The position numbers and the translations under genes are program-made. Shown in pieces: positions 18,793 to 28,005 of a DNA stretch of 64,000 bases (positions are counted from its first letter, which is position 1; the number at the start of each line of letters is the position of its first letter). Location of the stretch: the NCBI GenBank assembly GCA_947170225.1, contig CAMVSQ010000002.1, forward strand, positions 1 to 64,000, written 5' to 3'. The stretch comes from an uncultured bacterium. GTDB lineage: Bacteria > Patescibacteriota > Gracilibacteria > Absconditabacterales > Absconditicoccaceae. The notes under the pieces are model-generated. The model did no database searches. It worked only from the letters and a program-made list of their open reading frames with translations, and was not told where the DNA came from.

Positions 18793-19863
18793 ATGGGATT
18801 GGAAAATTATGAAGCAATAAGTAATGAAGAGTCTTTACTTAATGAGTTAAATAAAGTTATTGATTGATTTAAAACTGAATCAAATTTTGTTGCAAATGAG
18901 GCTATTAAAGGTTTGGATGAAAAAAACTTGACTACATTTATAGAAAAATCATTTAAAAATGACAATAGTGAGCGATTGACTTATTCTGAAATGAAGCAAA
19001 ATAGTTTTTATGGATTTATGGTACAATCAGCAATAGATCTATTGAGTGATAAATTGGCATCTGATGGGAGGGGGGAGAACAAATATGACAAAGATTGAAA
19101 AATTGATGAAAATGGTAAAACTTTGGATAATTGGATTAAGGATTCTGGTTGAATTGATAATGTTTATTGATGATGAACTAGAAATATTGTTAAAATGGTT
19201 CAACATATTTTAGGTATTCATGAGGATTGATTTGCTTGACCTCAATTTTTTGCTAAAGTTTGTAGTGTATTAAAGTGAGAATCTATTTCTAATTTTTCTG
19301 TAAAATGATATGAAAAATGACAAGATTATCCGTATTGATTTTGAGAAAAAATTAAAAACAATAACTATGAATTACCTGAATGATTTGAATTAAAAAGTTT
19401 TAAAGAAGGAACAAATTGAGTTCAGTATGCTAATATTTATAATGGATGAACTTATAGTAATTATTATTTGATGATAAAAAATGATTGATCAGCTGGAATT
19501 ATGCCATGAAAAAACTGTAATGAGGATGTTGATGGAAAAATTACAATTAATAATAATAAAATAGAGTTTATACCGTGATGATTTTGTAATTATAAAGCTG
19601 GAAGTAATGAATGAGATCTAAATGTTATAATAAAAAATGGATACGAGCTTTATGGTATTGAACCTACAGAGAATGGTTCAGATACATATGTTTATAGGAT
19701 AAAAAAAGATGGTAAATATTGTTGATATATTACTAAGAAATCTGGAGAGAATCCTAAATTTGATAAATGAACTTCAGAATGAGGCATAAAATTACTTGAA
19801 AAAGATGTTTTTATTGGTGGAAATAGTGTGAAAAATATGAAAAAACTTCGATATCTTGAATAA
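18793..19863 (+). CDS. 356-aa protein of unknown function
   Basis: No family recognised. The N-terminal ~100 residues are helical and acidic. A segment NIVKMVQHILGIHEDGFAGP at about residue 135 resembles the helix-turn pattern of small peptidoglycan-binding repeats (V-Q-x-x-L-G-I-x-x-D-G-x-x-G-P), but the match is weak. The C-terminal half is beta-rich with many aromatic, glycine and asparagine residues. No signal peptide or membrane helix. It has its own promoter and converges on the lepA C-terminal gene with only 6 bases between stops. Confidence 0.75.
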
Positions 19864-19869
19864 ATACAA

Positions 19870-21303
19870 TTACTTACTAACCATCTTGATGAAGACATCT
19901 CATGGGACATTTACACTTCCCATTGTCTTCATCTTTTTTTTACCTTCTTTTTGCTTTGCAAGAAGCTTTCTTTTACGAGTAATATCTCAACCGTAACATT
20001 TTGCTAAGACATCTTTTTTCATTGCAGGAATATTCTCTCTAGCAATCATTTTTGTTCAAATTCAAGCCTGTACTGGAATAACAAACAGATGTCTCGGTAT
20101 CAATTCTTTTAGTTTTTGAACTATTTCTCTTCATTTGTATACTGCATTGCTCTTATGCAAAATCATGGAAAGTGCTTCCATTTTCTCATTATTTAGAAAA
20201 ATATCAAGTTTTACCAAATCTGATTTTACATATTTTCTGAATTCATAATTCATGGTAGCATATCACTTTGTAGCTGATTTTAGCCTATCATAGAAATCAA
20301 CAAGGATTTCTCACATTGGCATCAAATACTTCCAAACTACTCTAGTCTGGTCAATATGTTCCATATTTTTCATTTCTCACCTGTATTCTTGGCACAATTG
20401 CATGATATCTCATGCATATTCTTGAGGTCAGACTATTTCCACATCAGCTATTGGCTCATAAATTTCGTCGATAATTCACTGTTCTGGGACATCTGATCCG
20501 GCTCTTGCTATGATTCGTAATTTTAATTTTTCTCAGTATTTTTCGATAATTTCTCAGACAGTCAATTCTACACTATCATTATCATTTTGGTTAATTGGCT
20601 CAAAATTATTGATTATTTGTTTGTAATATCATGTCTTTGCTAATTCTGCAATATTTGCTCATGATTTTATTTTTTCCAGTGCTGGAGTTTTTGATTTGAT
20701 TAGGTAAACTACAGTTGGTGTGGTAAATATTGTTTCGATTCCAAATTCTCTAAAAAGTCTTTCTTTGATGATATCCATATGTAGCATTCATAAAAATCCG
20801 CATCTGAATCACAATCAAAGTGCTTTTGAATCCTCCATTGTGTATTCGATTGAGCTATCGTTTAAACAAAGTTTGGCCAAGCTATCTTTGAGTTTTTCGT
20901 ATTCTGTTGTTTCAATTGGATAAACTCAAGCATATACAAATGGTTTACTTTTTTTGAATCAAGGAATAGCTAATGTTTGTAGATATTGTGGATCTTCTTC
21001 AGCTGTTTTTTTAATCTTCAGGTAATCCCCTATTATTGTATCTCCTATTTGAGCCTCACGAACTGATTTTAGTCATGTGACTATGTATCATATTTGTCAT
21101 TTTGTTAATTCTGGATCTTTTACATATTCTGGAGAAAAATGTCAGACTTCTGTTGGTTGTAGTCAGATTTTTGAATGAATTAGATAAAGATTGTCTCATA
21201 TTTTGAAAGTTCATTGTATTACTTTTACATAGGCTACAACTCATTTGTATGGATCATATACACAATCAAATATTAGTGCTTTAGGTATTTGGTTTTCGAT
21301 CAT
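19870..21303 (-). CDS. lepA: LepA/EF4 C-terminal part as a separate gene
   Basis: A 477-aa protein matching elongation factor 4 from domain II to the end, with no GTPase domain. It starts [20 protein letters not shown], which aligns with the first strand after the G domain (normally ...LIFDSWYD.Y.GV). It continues through [17 protein letters not shown]-like residues ([20 protein letters not shown]), [33 protein letters not shown], and the EF4-specific C-terminal domain ending [20 protein letters not shown]. The GTPase half is encoded at 22357-22890, upstream on the same strand, with two unrelated genes between. Start and stop are clean, so this is not a frameshift. The two products would need to associate to act as a ribosomal back-translocase. 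Confidence 0.95.
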
Positions 21304-21385
21304 TAAAAATTTGATTACTACAAAAATAAATTTCTGTTTACTTTGATATTGAAATATGTTTTTTATTCAAGATTTTTTAAAAAAA

Positions 21386-21404
21386 GGTGCGGCTGTACCG
21401 CACC
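21386..21404 (-). terminator. Strong rho-independent terminator of the 81-aa gene
   Basis: GGTGCGG and CCGCACC form a perfect 7-base GC-rich stem with a 5-base loop, followed on the minus strand by seven T. Its GC content contrasts with the AT-rich hairpins of most other genes here. Confidence 0.9.
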
Positions 21405-21421
21405 CTAGTGGTTACCAATGG

Positions 21422-21667
21422 TTAGTTACCATAGTTGTCGAAGAGCTCAATGAGCTCGTCTGGCTGGAAGATTCTAGGCTTTTTTACTCCATTGAGAGTT
21501 TTTGACTGAACTCTCAGCCTTCCATCGATTAGCTCATGAATTGTCACTGTGTGGCAATTATCCTCAATTGAGGATCCTTTAGGTAGAACAATCTTCATTT
21601 TGTTCGTACCAGGGAAAGTCGCTCCATACTTGTTCGACAACTCGCTTTGAAATTTTTCATTTCTCAT
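21422..21667 (-). CDS. 81-aa protein with standard-code composition, inside split lepA
   Basis: No family recognised. The protein begins MRNEKFQSELSNKYGATFPG and looks soluble and basic, with a beta-rich middle (HTVTIHELIDGRLRV). All six glycines use GGN and none use UGA, while neighbouring genes use mostly UGA. GC content is visibly higher. It has a clear ribosome-binding site (AAAGGA about 8 bases before ATG), its own promoter and a GC-rich terminator, so it is a self-contained cassette. It lies between the nitroreductase gene and the lepA C-terminal gene. Recent acquisition from a standard-code bacterium is inferred. Confidence 0.8.
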   Translation of the reverse strand: MRNEKFQSELSNKYGATFPGTNKMKIVLPKGSSIEDNCHTVTIHELIDGRLRVQSKTLNGVKKPRIFQPDELIELFDNYGN

Positions 21668-21718
21668 AAGTTTATTCCTTTCTTTTAGGTTAATATTTTT
21701 TGTATTAATGTGGTTTAT

Positions 21719-21746
21719 ATTATATAAAAAAATCTTGTCTTTTCAA
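21719..21746 (-). promoter_or_regulatory. Promoter of the 81-aa gene
   Basis: On the minus strand TTGAAA (21741-21746) and a perfect TATAAT (21719-21724) are 16 bases apart, about 50 bases before the ATG at 21667. The promoter starts immediately after the end of the nitroreductase gene. Confidence 0.65.
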
Positions 21747-21753
21747 GAAAAGA

Positions 21754-22260
21754 TTACAAAATCTCAATCTTTCAATCAATCTTTAGGTTTTTTGGCATCA
21801 ATTCTCATTCTGGGACACCAATCGATAGTAGTGCAAATGGTGTGATGTTTTCGTCTAAATTGAAATGTTTTTTTAATTCTTTAATTGGCTCTTCGTGTGG
21901 ATAAGTTCAAATTCGGACAGCTCAATATCATTTTTCGTGAGTTGCAAGAAGTATGTTTTGTATACTGGCTCACATATCTTGCTGGATGAATTCTGGGCTT
22001 CTTAATTTTTCTTGATCAAAACAAGCTAAAATTACTCACGAGGCATTTGGGATCATTTTTCATCGTTCCATCAAATTTCACAAGAAATCTAGATCTGTTT
22101 GTTTTGTAATGATATAATATTTTCGAGCTTGTTGATTATGTGCAGATGGAGCATAAAGTCAGTATTCTACCACTTCAGTTATTTGTTCTGGAGTGAGTTT
22201 TTGATTCTGTGAATAGGTCCTAACTGATCTACGAGTTTTAATTGCTTCTAGTGTTTGCAT
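21754..22260 (-). CDS. Nitroreductase-family flavoprotein
   Basis: A 168-aa FMN-dependent oxidoreductase of the nitroreductase family. Starts MQTLEAIKTRRSVRTYS with the R-R-S-(V/I)-R motif that contacts FMN; LYAPSAHNQQARKYYIIT is the second FMN-contact segment; the C-terminal part contains GASIQNILLATHEKGYGAVRIG. Natural electron acceptor cannot be inferred. Unlike the 81-aa gene next to it, it uses UGA for several glycines, so it is native or long resident. It lies between the two lepA gene halves, separated from the N-terminal half by a palindromic repeat. Confidence 0.93.
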
Positions 22261-22289
22261 TTTTTATTCTGTTGTATTTTAAAGTATGT

Positions 22290-22345
22290 GTCATTCTGAA
22301 CGAAGTGAAGAATATAATTATATCCTTCGTTTCACTCAGGATGAC
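22290..22345. repeat. Dispersed palindromic repeat copy between lepA-N and nitroreductase
   Basis: GTCATTCTGAACGAAGTGAA at the left and TTTCACTCAGGATGAC at the right, a short copy with compact loop (AATATAATTATATCCTTCG region). It sits at the point where the lepA reading frame is interrupted by other genes. Confidence 0.85.
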
Positions 22346-22356
22346 ATTTTAAGTTT

Positions 22357-22890
22357 CTATTTCGGTTCTGGGATTTTTTCAATGATGGCATCTAGTACTG
22401 CTTCGACTCATTCTCAGGTCTTTCATGAAACAAAATAAATATCTTCTCTTGGGATTCAAATCACATTTTCAATTTCTTTGGCTACTCTTTCCGGATTTGC
22501 TGCTGGGAGATCGATTTTATTCAAGACAGGAATTATCTCTAAATCTTGGTCAATTGCTTGATACAGTGTTGAAAGTGTTTGGGCTTGGATTCATTGACTT
22601 GCATCTACAAGCAAAATCGCTCATTCTACTGCGGCAAGTGAACGAGAAACTTCATATTGAAAATCGACATGACCTGGAGTGTCTATCATATTTAATTCGT
22701 ATCATTTCCACTGCATTCTTACTGGAGTTAGTTTGATTGTAATTCATCTTTCTTGTTCCAAATCCATGCGGTCCAATACTTGATTTTTGTCTGATTTTCT
22801 GATTGTACCAGTAAGCTCTAGCATCCTATCCGCTAGAGTAGATTTTCAGTGGTCTATATGTGCTATAATGCAAAAATTTCTGATATTCAT
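22357..22890 (-). CDS. lepA: LepA/EF4 GTPase domain as a separate gene
   Basis: A 177-aa protein consisting only of the translational GTPase domain of elongation factor 4. G motifs in order: [19 protein letters not shown] (G1), ERGITIKL (G2), [10 protein letters not shown] (G3), LNKIDLP (G4), VSGKTGEGVEAVL (G5). It ends cleanly at TAG after IIEKIPEPK, which is where the linker to domain II begins in ordinary LepA (~600 aa). The rest is encoded at 19870-21303. The glycine in DHGKST is UGA. It is preceded by ruvA on the same strand. The product should bind GTP, but ribosome action needs the other half. Confidence 0.95.
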
Positions 22891-22912
22891 TGTTAAAATT
22901 TCATATTTTAAA

Positions 22913-23464
22913 TTATAATTTTGATATGACTCGTTTGATTACATCTGTCATATTTTCATTTGTGATTTTTCAATCATATTCTTGCAAAACTTTTTTTACT
23001 GATGTAGCTTCGTAACCAAGTCATTTCATTGATGAAACGATTGATTTGTAGAGCTTTTGGTCAATATCCATTTTTGCCACATCGGATAATTCAAATGTTC
23101 ATTTCAATTCAATCAAAATCTTTTTCGCTGATTTTGGTCAGATTCCTGGAATTGATTGAAAAAATTTTGTATCTAGGGTTTTGATTGCTTCTTTAAATTC
23201 CTCTCTTGGCAGTGCTACAATTTGGAATGCTGTTTTTGGTCATACTCAATTAACTTTTAAAATCTCTTCAAATGATATTTTTTGTTCAATTGTATCAAAA
23301 GCAAAATAAACTGTAGTCCTTTTGTTTTCATCGTAATATGGGTACAAGAAAAATTCTCATTCGTTTTTATTTCATGAATATTGAGTTTCTACTCAAAAAA
23401 GTTCATTTTGGATGAAAATCTTGTTTTGATATCTGTGAAGTTTTCAATTGATATAGTGAAACAT
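22913..23464 (-). CDS. ruvA: Holliday junction DNA helicase subunit RuvA
   Basis: A 183-aa protein that binds Holliday junctions and loads RuvB. It has the OB-fold start (MFHYINGKLHRY), two helix-hairpin-helix motifs (ILKVNGVGPKTAFQIV and FQSIPGIGPKSAKKILIELK), and a C-terminal three-helix domain III (KSIVSSMKGLGYEATSVKKV) that contacts RuvB. Length is slightly below E. coli RuvA (203 aa). UGA provides glycines of both hairpins. It precedes the lepA GTPase gene by 22 bases and is probably co-transcribed with it. Confidence 0.95.
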
Positions 23465-23633
23465 TTTGATTAGTTAATTTATAATTATTTTATTTTTATA
23501 TTTTAATACAAAAAAAAATCAAACAAAAATTAATATTATCGTTGACGATGTTTTGTACTTGACTTTTATTACAAAATATATACTTATAAAGTATAAAAAA
23601 ACAAAATATTAAACCCAAAAAAATTAAAATTTT

Positions 23634-24458
23634 ATGAGTAAAGATTTAGTAATTCTCACATCTCTCGAAGATGTGAAAAAGACTGCTGAACTTGTCATGA
23701 AAGCCGATCCACAAATTACAGGATGGGAGTTCACAGACAAAGTTGCGGTTGGATGGAGTAAATGGGGGTTCAATCATAATGTTGTGTGGGTATTACAGGT
23801 TTGGGTTGAATACAATCAACATGAACCCGTACTTCGTGACTACTACTTCCATGATGGAGACTATAAAGGTTCTTTGACTAGGTGTGAACCAAGCAAAACT
23901 GCCAAGTACACCATCAAAAACATTTCCCGTGATTGTGAATATCATTCTTTCGAGCTAAAGAGTGTTAACGGTATTGCAGAGGTAAAAACCACTTACTATT
24001 TCCATAATTATCCGTGGGAAAAAGCAAGATGCGTTGAGCGCCATCAATATTGTCCCGATCAAGTATCGAGTTTCTATGACAAGCCTGTCATGTTTCCTAA
24101 CAAAGATTTCATCAAGATGCTTGAAACTCATCATCTTGAGCAATATAAGCTGTTTCAGCCAAAATTGGTTGGTGAAACTCCATGTTGGGTTACGGGGCAT
24201 CCGCTTTCTAGCAGAGATCCCACTTATATTCACTTCTGTTTCATGATGCCACACATCTGTTACAGAACAGAGCATTTGCGGCCTATTGGTGCATATCGAA
24301 AAACTTTGTCAGATTTTGATGAAATCGAAATCGGAAAAGAATACCCATTGTACCAGCTTAGAGACTGCGCCGATGTCTCGACGAGTAATTTGCTCTCTGT
24401 TACTTTTGACGGCGAAAACTTCCACTTTGTTCGCTCCAGTGAATCAACTCTCATTTAG
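23634..24458 (+). CDS. 274-aa protein with standard-code composition, unknown function
   Basis: No family recognised. The protein is rich in Trp, Tyr and His (for example WEFTDKVAVGWSKWGFNHN), looks soluble and has no signal peptide. It has ten cysteines spread along the chain. All eleven glycines are GGN and none is UGA; GC content is well above neighbours and CGN arginine codons are common. Ends TAG, followed by a GC-containing hairpin terminator. Upstream is a TTGACT/TATAAA-like AT-rich region with poor spacing, so the promoter is uncertain. It is readable without change under the standard code. Likely a recent arrival from a standard-code bacterium, or a gene kept free of UGA for another reason. 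Confidence 0.85.
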   Translation: MSKDLVILTSLEDVKKTAELVMKADPQITGWEFTDKVAVGWSKWGFNHNVVWVLQVWVEYNQHEPVLRDYYFHDGDYKGSLTRCEPSKTAKYTIKNISRDCEYHSFELKSVNGIAEVKTTYYFHNYPWEKARCVERHQYCPDQVSSFYDKPVMFPNKDFIKMLETHHLEQYKLFQPKLVGETPCWVTGHPLSSRDPTYIHFCFMMPHICYRTEHLRPIGAYRKTLSDFDEIEIGKEYPLYQLRDCADVSTSNLLSVTFDGENFHFVRSSESTLI

Positions 24459-24479
24459 TAAGTAAACTAACAAGCGAAA

Positions 24480-24507
24480 ATCCGACTATATTTTGGTCGG
24501 GTTTTTT
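24480..24507 (+). terminator. Rho-independent terminator of the 274-aa gene
   Basis: AATCCGAC pairs with GTCGGGTT around a loop of about ten bases, followed by TTTTTCTTT. It lies 22 bases after the TAG stop. Confidence 0.85.
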
Positions 24508-24575
24508 CTTTATTTTTCGTCTTGATATCTGAACAAATTTTAGTATATACTTGAAATATGAAAGTGGTTTTTTTA

Positions 24576-24604
24576 TTGTTTTAAAATTTATGTTGTTTTA
24601 TATT
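24576..24604 (+). promoter_or_regulatory. Possible rpoD promoter
   Basis: TTGTTT (24576-24581) and TATATT (24599-24604) are 17 bases apart, 20 bases before the ATG at 24624. Moderate match in AT-rich DNA. Confidence 0.35.
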
Positions 24605-24623
24605 TTAATTGTGTAATAACTAC

Positions 24624-25913
24624 ATGGCTACAAAAATCAAACAGCAATTACGAGAAAAATTTCAAGATGATATTTCAGAATTAACAAAACCATTGCAATT
24701 ATTGCTAAACAAATGATTTCAGACTTGAAGTGTCAGTGAAGAAGATATAATATCAGAAATTGATGATATGGACCAAAGTGCTAAATTGTTGGAAAAATTT
24801 TATGATTTGGCGGACAAGTTGAGTGTAAAGATTTTGACTATTGAAGAAGTTTTGGAGTTGGAATCAAAAGAGTTGGTGAAAGAAACGAAATTGTGAAAAG
24901 TAGAATTGTATGATACTACTTATAGGACAAATGACAAGCAGTTTAAGGATTATATCAAATTATATTTCAATGATATTGCAAAAATTCCTCTTTTGAGTTG
25001 AGAAGAAGAGAGGGATATAGCTAGAAAAATAAAAAAATGAGACGAAGAAGCCAAAAAACAATTGATTGAATCAAATTTGAGATTGGTAATTAGTATTGCA
25101 AAGAGGTTTTTTGGTAGTAGATTGAGTTTTTCTGATTTGATTCAAGAGTGAAATATTTGACTAATTAAAGCTATTGAAAAATTTGATCCAGATAAGGAAT
25201 TTAAATTTTCTACCTATGCTACTTGGTGGATTAAACAATCTATCACAAAAGCTATTGCTGATATGACAAAAAATGTGAGAATACCTGTGCATTTGATTGA
25301 TGAAATCAATAGTTATAACAAAACTTATCAGTTATTATTCCAAAAATTTGGTAGAGAGCCGACAAGTAAAGAAATTTGAAAAGAATTGAATTTTCCAATC
25401 AAAAAGATAAAAAAGCTTGAAGAAGTGATTTTTGGAAATGTATCTTTGGATAGAGAAGTTTGAGATGAATGAAGAGATACTTTGGCAGATTTGCTTGAAG
25501 ATTCTAATACTTTGAGACCAGACCAATTCGCTGAAAAAAATAAGTTGAGACAAAATTTGGATATGATACTTTGAATGCTGGATGATAGGGAAGCAAAAAT
25601 TATCAAAATGAGATATGGAATTGACGGACCAAGATACACTTTGGAGCAGGTTTGAGAAGAATTTGATGTGACTCGTGAAAGAGTAAGACAAATTGAGCAA
25701 AAAGTGATTCAAAAACTAAAAGATCATGAATGATTGCAAAAGATACTTTGAATTGAAGATGATGTAGCAAAAATGGAAGAACTTGAAAAAACTTGAAAAA
25801 GAAAGAAATGAAAAAGAGTAAAAAAAGCTGAATCTCGTGATTATGATGACGATGATAATGTGGATTATGCATATCAAGAGTACCTTTCTGAGGCAGAAGA
25901 TGATGATTTTTAA
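24624..25913 (+). CDS. rpoD: RNA polymerase primary sigma factor
   Basis: A 429-aa sigma-70 factor. After a charged N-terminal part (region 1.1-like) come region 1.2 ([20 protein letters not shown]), region 2 ([20 protein letters not shown], then [18 protein letters not shown] for -10 recognition and melting), region 3 ([16 protein letters not shown]), and region 4.2 ([20 protein letters not shown]) that reads the -35 box. A lysine-rich and then acidic tail of about 60 residues after region 4 (KTGKRKKGKRVKK, then [20 protein letters not shown]) is unusual for primary sigma factors. Followed by a palindromic repeat and gyrB. Confidence 0.97.
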
Positions 25914-25924
25914 TGAAATACTAC

Positions 25925-25990
25925 GTCATTCTGAACGAAGTGAAGAATCTTTCTAAAGATTCTTTGGTCACTTTGTTCCCTCAGAATGAC
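25925..25990. repeat. Dispersed palindromic repeat copy
   Basis: GTCATTCTGAACGAAGTGAA at the left, TTGTTCCCTCAGAATGAC at the right; lies between rpoD and gyrB. Confidence 0.85.
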
Positions 25991-26019
25991 AGGACTGATT
26001 TAGTTATTATAAAGATTAA

Positions 26020-27915
26020 ATGACTGATACAACAAATTATGATGCATCCAATATTAGAGTTTTGGAATGATTGGAACCTGTAAGACAAAGACCATGAATG
26101 TATATTTGATCTACGGATATCAAATGATTACACCACATGATACAAGAAATTGTGGATAATTCTGTAGATGAGGCTTTGGCTGGATTCTGTCATCACATTA
26201 CTACTGTATTGCACAAAGACAATTCGGTGACAATTTATGATGATGGTAGGTGAATTCCTGTGGACAAACATCCAAAGACAGGTAAATCTGCTGTGGAAAC
26301 TGTTTATACAGTACTTCATGCTGGATGAAAATTTGATAAATCTGTATATAAAGTTTCAGGATGATTACATGGAGTTTGAGCATCAGTTGTAAATGCTTTG
26401 TCTGAATGGTTGGAAGTGACTGTACACAAAAATGGTCATGTTTATAGGCAAAGATATGAAAAATGAGTTCCACAAACTGATTTGGAAATAATTTGAGATA
26501 CAGATAGGACTTGAACTATTGTTTCATTTTTGCCAGACAAAACTATTTTTGATACTATAGAATTTTCTGGGAGTACTGAAATTGCTAGAAACAAACAGTG
26601 TGCTTATTTGACTCCATGAGTTGCTTTCACTTTTATAGATGAAAAAGAATGAACAAAAAATAGGTTTTTCTATGAGTGATGATTAAAAACTTGGTTAAAT
26701 AATTTGGTTTGAAATCAACAAAGACTTTCAACTCCACAATATATGAATGTTGAATGAAATGATTGTCTTGTTGAAATTGCTTTCCAATTTACAAACTCAA
26801 GCAATGATAATACATTATCATTTGTAAACAATATCCCTACAAGAGATGGATGAACACATGTTTTATGATTCAAATCTGCTCTTTTGAATGCTATGAATGA
26901 GATTTGAAAAGAAAAAGATAAAATTGACAAGAAGATTTGAGAATTCCAAAATAGTGATGTGACAGATGGATTATATGCGATTGTAAATGTAAAAATCCCT
27001 GAGCCACAATTTGAATGACAGACAAAATGAAGACTTGGAAATGCTTATGTGAGATGAGAAGTGGAAAAAGTTGTTTATAATTATTTGATAGAAGAATTTA
27101 AGAAAGATGAATCGGCTTTTGATAAGATATTTGATAAAATCAATCTGGCAGCCAGAGCAAGACTTGCAGCAAAACTGGCAAAGGAAACTGTTTTGAGAAA
27201 AAATGTAATTGCTGGTTGAGTTTTGCCATGAAAATTGGCTGACTGTGGAAAGAAATGAATGGAATGAACAGAATTATTTATAGTCGAGGGAGATTCGGCT
27301 GGTTGAAGTGCTAAATCTGGTCGTGATAGTATGTATCAAGCAATCTTGCCATTGAGATGAAAAATCTTGAATACAGAACAAGCTGCAATGCAAAGAATTA
27401 TGACTAACCAAGAAATAAAGAGTTTGATTACTGCTATTTGAGCATGAATCAAAGAAAGTTATGATGAAAGCAATTTGAGATATCAAAGAATTATAATAAT
27501 GACCGATGCCGACGTTGACTGAGCACATATTAGGACATTGTTATTCACATTTTTCTTTAGATTTATGAGGCCTTTGATTGAAAATGGTCATTTATTTGCA
27601 GCATGTCCTCCAATATACAAATTTTCACAATGAAAGACTGAAAAATATATTTACAGAGAAGAAGAGACTCCTGCAGACCACTGATTCGATCCAGAAAAAA
27701 CTGAAGTACAAAGATATAAAGGTCTATGAGAAATGAATGCTGAACAACTTTGGACAACTACGATGGATCCAAACAATAGGAGATTGAACCAAGTAAATAT
27801 TGAAGATGCTGAAGAAGCAGATAGATTATTTAGGATTTTGATGGGTGAAGATGTACTTTCAAGGAAACATTTTATCCTTACTCATGCAAAATCTGTAAAG
27901 AATATGGATATTTAG
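26020..27915 (+). CDS. gyrB: DNA gyrase subunit B
   Basis: A 631-aa type II topoisomerase ATPase subunit. The GHKL ATPase fold shows [42 protein letters not shown] and the [15 protein letters not shown] loop. The transducer follows. The TOPRIM domain shows EGDSAGGSAKSGRD, LPLRGKILN and MTDADVDGAHIRTLL; the C-terminal end has [22 protein letters not shown] encodes most of these glycines. GyrB and ParE are hard to separate by eye; gyrB is chosen because no second copy is seen. The gyrA gene is not in the window. A strong hairpin terminator follows. Confidence 0.95.
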
Positions 27916-27968
27916 TTGAGCTGATGGTCTCTAGTCTCTAGTTGATGGTTTCTGTTGGAATTTAAAAT

Positions 27969-28005
27969 AAAAAAGCCAGTGTATTTGATTTTCCTGGCTT
28001 TTTTT
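27969..28005. terminator. Bidirectional terminator between gyrB and the UPF0489 gene
   Basis: ATAAAAAAGCCAG and CTGGCTTTTTTTAT form a stem with A and T runs on the two sides. It can end transcription of gyrB (+) and of the convergent UPF0489 gene (-), whose stop codon overlaps the right arm. Confidence 0.85.

Follow-up and report, generated by a model that had tools for sequence, protein, structure and literature searches.

A TGA-free, self-contained gene between ruvA and rpoD, probably of foreign origin, in a bacterium that translates UGA as glycine

The DNA analyzed here (the window, 64,000 nucleotides, C2:1-64000) opens the second contig of a draft genome of an uncultured member of the Absconditicoccaceae, which comprises 952,577 bases in 24 contigs. 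UGA is glycine in this bacterium (genetic code 25): in window ORFs longer than 120 aa, TGA encodes 974 of 1347 glycines (72%). An earlier study did not detect prfB, the gene for RF2, in the BD1-5 genomes then available (PMC6851277). The window has a GC content of 28.9%, and native genes have a mean GC of 0.297 (sd 0.031) and a mean GC3 of 0.231 (sd 0.047). Between the native genes ruvA and rpoD lies ORF274, a gene without in-frame TGA and with signals of its own on both sides, and a second TGA-free gene, ORF81, lies beyond ruvA (Table 1). An Rfam search of positions 19000-28000 found nothing.

Table 1. Features of the ruvA-rpoD gap and of ORF81, in window coordinates
Feature	Position	Strand	Description	Basis
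Terminator after ORF81	21384-21406	-	intrinsic terminator	terminator scan
ORF81	21422-21667	-	81 aa; 6 Gly, none TGA; GC 0.402	
ORF81 promoter-like site	21719-21746	-	TTGAAA-16-TATAAT (11/12)	promoter scan
ruvA	22913-23464	-	native, left neighbour of ORF274; 10/12 Gly as TGA	
ORF274 promoter-like site	23559-23584	+	TTGACT (23559-23564), 14-nt spacer, TATACT (23579-23584)	sequence; promoter-first scan
ORF274 leader	23585-23633	+	A-rich, without Shine-Dalgarno	sequence; leader type common to the TGA-free class
ORF274	23634-24458	+	ATG start, 274 aa and TAG stop; 11/11 Gly GGN, no in-frame TGA; GC 0.406	
Tandem stops	24456-24461	+	in-frame TAG TAA	sequence
ORF274 terminator	24476-24506	+	intrinsic terminator GAAAATCCGACTATATTTTGGTCGGGTTTTT with T tail	terminator scan and folding
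rpoD	24624-25913	+	sigma-70, native, right neighbour of ORF274; 16/21 Gly as TGA	

The glycines of ORF274 are written GGA (4), GGT (4), GGC (1) and GGG (2), and at the native TGA share of 72% the probability of finding no TGA among eleven is about 8e-7. TGA is present in the two other sense frames (5 and 17 copies), so the depletion is confined to the reading frame. Both GC (40.6% against 28.9% for the window) and GC3 (0.394) lie about 3.5 sd above native genes, and the frame contains no internal stop of the standard code, which was true of none of 20,000 first-order Markov sequences matched to it in length and composition. With glycine left out, the codon usage of ORF274 scores +0.129 per codon under an import model, beyond the range of the 150 native genes tested (-0.088, sd 0.044, maximum 0.047). 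The protein is rich in Trp, His and Cys (2.6, 4.7 and 2.9%, versus 0.7, 1.3 and 1.0% in native proteins), and since all seven Trp codons are TGG, a donor that reads UGA as Trp finds no support. A preliminary description of this DNA had reported the GGN glycines, the lower AT content, the unusual amino acid composition and a conventional terminator, all of which are borne out here; its end coordinate for the gene, 24507, takes in the terminator, and ORF274 itself ends at 24458. That terminator is strong, with the surrounding 62-nt segment folding at -17.7 kcal/mol (z -4.4). On the upstream side, the sequence TTGACTT begins at 23559. Promoters usually have a spacing of 16–18 nt; the 14 nt found here is poorer than in other members of the class described below, and a consensus promoter scan with 16–18 nt spacing did not list the site.

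The preliminary description recognized no relative of the protein, and the searches made here agree. ORF274 has no credible match in the family libraries (Pfam, PHROGs, NCBIfam and PADLOC), in the PDB, or among phages, plasmids, IMG/VR (two scans) and GTDB contigs, and no credible homologue in the family, class and phylum genomes searched. It is absent from the other 48 of the 49 family genomes, and the four matches in 353 class genomes (E 0.04–0.07, 11–12 bits only) are noise. None of the anti-phage defence families modelled in PADLOC matched at E up to 1. Single-sequence AlphaFold2 gave a pLDDT of 35, which is useless. There is no Pfam or NCBIfam match to a type IX C-terminal sorting tail and no signal peptide is evident on inspection, and on these grounds our guess is that the product may be a cytoplasmic accessory protein of use only to this lineage.

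The site itself can be compared with relatives. In the same-genus genome G001, and in the family members G003 and G014, ruvA and rpoD are adjacent and divergent, and ORF274 is missing in all three. The gap between the called ruvA and rpoD measures 1145 bp here and 498 bp in G001, with ends that are not fixable to the base because the intergenic DNA is too diverged. The absence of ORF274 from this gap in relatives, combined with the lack of a homologue, points to a species-level insertion, and ORF274 is best read, on sequence comparison, as an ORFan inserted at that level. The foreign origin put forward in the preliminary description is thus well supported by the absence of in-frame TGA, the raised GC and GC3, the codon usage, the lack of a homologue in the other family genomes and the empty site, while the Parcubacteria donor that it considered is not, as no homologue was found anywhere. 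Two further observations concern this neighbourhood. The rpoD-ruvA gap, which holds ORF274 here, contains in G001 a GC-rich, repeat-like segment (CCCCGCCCCGTAGGACTACGGGGCGGGG; L068:2260-2480). G004, another family member, has a TGA-free ndk (nucleoside diphosphate kinase) immediately upstream of its ruvA (L072:1407-1910), preceded by a TTGACTT promoter and followed by a terminator. An insertion hotspot upstream of ruvA was considered from these two cases and is needless given the genome-wide scatter of such genes.

ORF274 is one of a class of genes. ORFs of at least 80 aa with at least three glycines, a GC3 of at least 0.27 and no TGA were collected within 531 kb of the genome (56%; the window and 467 kb from elsewhere), so that only properties of the coding sequence (TGA content and GC3), and none of the flanks, entered the selection. 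There are 23 of them, on nine contigs (C1, C2 and C4-C10), in a sample where 348 ORFs use TGA for at least half of their glycines. Probably a few of them, such as C1:125003 and C5:1330, are spurious, and the class counts of 23, 24 and 25 used below differ by the start-codon rule and the spurious cases removed. Almost all of the TGA-free genes adjoin TGA-rich genes, which argues that they do not come from mis-binned contigs.

The members of the class share a layout. An intrinsic terminator follows 14 of the 23, compared with 35 of the 348 native genes (odds ratio 14, p 2.8e-8), and a looser folding test gave 21 of 25 versus 116 of 346. The motif TTGAC[AT]T occurs within 120 bp upstream of 18 of 24 TGA-free genes and of 7 of 208 native leader genes (odds ratio 86, p 1.8e-16), a p-value that is optimistic because the motif had been spotted by eye in the same TGA-free genes before counting; the fuller TTGAC-TATWAT pattern precedes 13 of 24 and 10 of 208, respectively. 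The last 35 nt of the leader are 56% A, against 39% in native genes, and apart from ORF81 no leader in the class carries a Shine-Dalgarno-like sequence. A scan that began from the promoter recovered mostly the same TGA-free genes, along with some native-coded ones. Similar promoters precede TGA-free genes of relatives (ndk in G004, a type IX tail gene in G413 and two genes in G001), though not every one examined. With its open frame free of TGA, raised GC3, TTGAC[AT]T motif, A-rich leader, terminator and TGA-rich neighbours, ORF274 fits this class in all but its promoter spacing.

Comparison within the genus bears on the age of these genes. In 285 kb sampled from G001, a homologue was found for 1 of the 23 TGA-free genes and for 80 of the 348 native genes (p 0.036), and where the flanks on both sides are conserved and close the gap is shorter in G001 than here (498 versus 1145, 921 versus 1753 and 676 versus 5105 bp). 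Long-term upkeep of the TGA-free genes was considered, and this comparison favours recent insertion instead. The single homologue is thyA. The copy here is a TGA-free thymidylate synthase of 344 aa and GC 0.44 on contig C10 (L121:11012-12046); that of G001 is 33% identical and writes 14 of its 19 glycines as TGA, a difference which suggests that the C10 gene is a foreign one that replaced the native thyA. G001 has long AT-rich ORFs without TGA of its own (47, 29 and 25 Gly; GC3 0.17–0.22; L139:4414-7578 and L153:274-3289), possibly mobile genes, older imports or binning errors.

The preliminary description had coupled ORF274 to a second such gene, taken here to be ORF81, and proposed a site of foreign DNA uptake near lepA and ruvA. 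The scatter of about 23 similar genes over C1, C2 and C4-C10 does not sustain a special site, nor do the promoter and leader of ORF81, which differ from those of ORF274. The start codon of ORF81 is preceded by the Shine-Dalgarno-like AAAGGAA, in contrast to the rest of the class, and this leader and the different promoter suggest that the two genes may have different sources. No homologue of ORF81 was found in the searches: phylum matches reached 13–17 bits, and one plasmid match (E 0.3), located within a protein of roughly 320 aa whose gene belongs to a series of hypothetical genes of similar size, is attributed to chance. Its single-sequence AlphaFold2 model has a pLDDT of 63.

ORF81 and a nitroreductase gene lie between two pieces of LepA (EF4), which is split in the window into a GTPase-domain piece of 177 aa (22357-22890, minus strand) and the remainder of 477 aa (19870-21303, minus strand). 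LepA is in two pieces in G001 as well, the second of them inverted, and is one fused gene in G003, G014 and several other family members. In the C-terminal piece of G001 (L068:5016-6932) some 140 aa are inserted in frame, and they include a PD-(D/E)XK nuclease domain (PF13366, E 2.1e-28). G004, G015 and G011 (stretches L071, L073 and L081) show only a C-terminal piece of about 470–510 aa with no adjoining GTPase piece, and a divided LepA may be more frequent across the family.

Evidence on the donors comes from the class as a whole. Members with 24, 24 and 36 glycines contain no TGA. Additionally, some TGA-poor ORFs have a TGA close to their end, at codon 109 of 117 in C1:74476-74829 and codon 122 of 128 in C9:7661-8047, and in C1:106377-106847 the TGA at codon 95 is soon followed by a terminator-like hairpin. 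These TGA codons seem to be donor stops that are now read through into a short tail. One TGA-free member, the only one with a domain diagnostic of a taxon, carries a type IX secretion sorting tail (TIGR04183, above the cut-off). Such tails are described mainly in Bacteroidota and allied phyla, a further reason why a Parcubacteria donor is not supported. Taken together, the glycine-rich TGA-free members, the apparent read-through and the type IX tail point to standard-code donors, the origin favoured here for the class. Type IX sorting tails are found in 29 of the 49 family genomes, and most of the matched tails are without TGA. SprA, of the type IX translocon, had no match in the family in a search whose control failed to register either. 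TGA-free proteins with type IX tails lie directly upstream of rpsL-rpsG on C7 of this genome (L095:15423-16472) and in three genomes of another genus (L131, L132 and L134), with 24–41% identity in parts.

The explanation that we consider probable is that ORF274 is a recently acquired, foreign and autonomous single-gene transcription unit in the ruvA-rpoD gap, one of about two dozen in 56% of the genome. The sigma-70 polymerase of the cell would transcribe it from the TTGACT-type promoter, and translation would proceed without a Shine-Dalgarno sequence. A message free of UGA would read the same in both codes, its UAG and UAA stops would still be recognized, and the terminator would insulate rpoD. 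The donors of the class would be organisms that use TGA as a stop, as some members seem to have retained the donor TGA.

The alternative that survives best, though still unlikely, is a donor that was itself a code-25 bacterium, of higher GC and with TGA as a rare glycine codon, so that no crossing of codes took place. Code-25 relatives with a GC of 0.34–0.39 use TGA for 12–40% of glycines, which places the probability of none in eleven between 0.003 and 0.25, and for ORF274 alone the step from absence of TGA to a standard-code donor is therefore a weak one. The codon usage of ORF274 does not separate candidate donors and matches G013 as well as any source. Conversely, the 49 family and 353 class genomes hold no homologue beyond the four 11–12-bit matches, and a code-25 donor accounts poorly for class members with 24, 24 and 36 glycines and no TGA and for those that look read through a donor stop. 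It is the apparent read-through genes that make the case for standard-code donors stronger at the level of the class.

Delivery by a phage compatible with the standard code, with the unit carried as a moron-like gene, is rather improbable. Phages of Gracilibacteria and Absconditabacteria that are compatible with code 11 have been reported to lack in-frame TGA and to carry several stops at gene ends (PMC10746230), and ORF274, in a code-25 host and ending in TAG TAA, resembles them in these respects. The layout is moron-like as well: a single gene with its own promoter and terminator and a deviant composition, inserted between resident genes. Unlike phage morons, ORF274 is chromosomal, between ruvA and rpoD in a recoded host genome, with no prophage, adjoining phage genes or phage homologue; there is no PHROG match at a meaningful E-value and none in phages or IMG/VR. 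The reported cases are phage genomes (PMC10746230), whereas the class described here consists of isolated chromosomal genes, and its type IX tail member is a secreted protein unlike phage cargo.

Beyond acquisition as such, it could be imagined that the family runs a steady traffic of standard-code units, in one promoter-ORF-terminator format, with a Bacteroidota-type host or prey, and that the units are maintained in a form which either code can read, one stretch of DNA thereby serving both parasite and host; this we regard as very unlikely. Still less probable is that ORF274 is a native gene held free of TGA by selection, for example for expression in a standard-code host cell. The uniform layout of the class across species would suit such selection, as would the presence in 29 of 49 family genomes of type IX tails, mostly without TGA, that are functional only in cells with that system. 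Against it, ORF274 and the other conserved-flank cases are missing in the same-genus species and so are mostly recent, foreign origin is the simpler account of the raised GC3, and no delivery route is known. An assembly chimera, mis-binned DNA or a spurious frame is scarcely credible even for a draft of 24 contigs, as ORF274 sits in the interior of a 91-kb contig with TGA-rich ruvA and rpoD on either side, is open where 0 of 20,000 random sequences were, and has a layout seen in some 23 genes across separate contigs and again in relatives.

The preferred reading, recent acquisition of a self-contained foreign gene, has partial parallels. A Gracilibacterium has been described with an archaea-like ATP citrate lyase and a possibly Colwellia-derived region (PMC6851277). 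The likeness to the case here is horizontal acquisition into a code-25 genome, of 28.9% GC; its possibly Colwellia-derived region uses alternative coding throughout, while the genes here are TGA-free with a uniform stand-alone layout. Integron gene cassettes are likewise single-gene foreign units of mostly unassigned function, but as a rule they are promoterless and stand in arrays, whereas the units here lie scattered, with promoters and terminators of their own. In the open-licence literature searched, neither TGA-free stand-alone genes nor type IX sorting tails were found described for Gracilibacteria, and their novelty is provisional.

Foreign genes are often assumed to be kept out of a lineage once it has reassigned a stop codon. 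The presence of about two dozen probably foreign, self-contained genes in the sampled half of this genome indicates that genes from outside can enter this lineage in spite of its altered code. The absence of TGA acts as a direct tracer of foreign genes, by which about two dozen probable imports stand out in a single code-25 genome, most of which form separate one-gene transcription units with signals of their own. In a few, the donor TGA stop is apparently read through into a tail, which would be a price of the change of code. As proteins with type IX tails occur in more than half of the family genomes, mostly with TGA-free tails, the same tracer might identify the hosts or prey of these uncultured bacteria.
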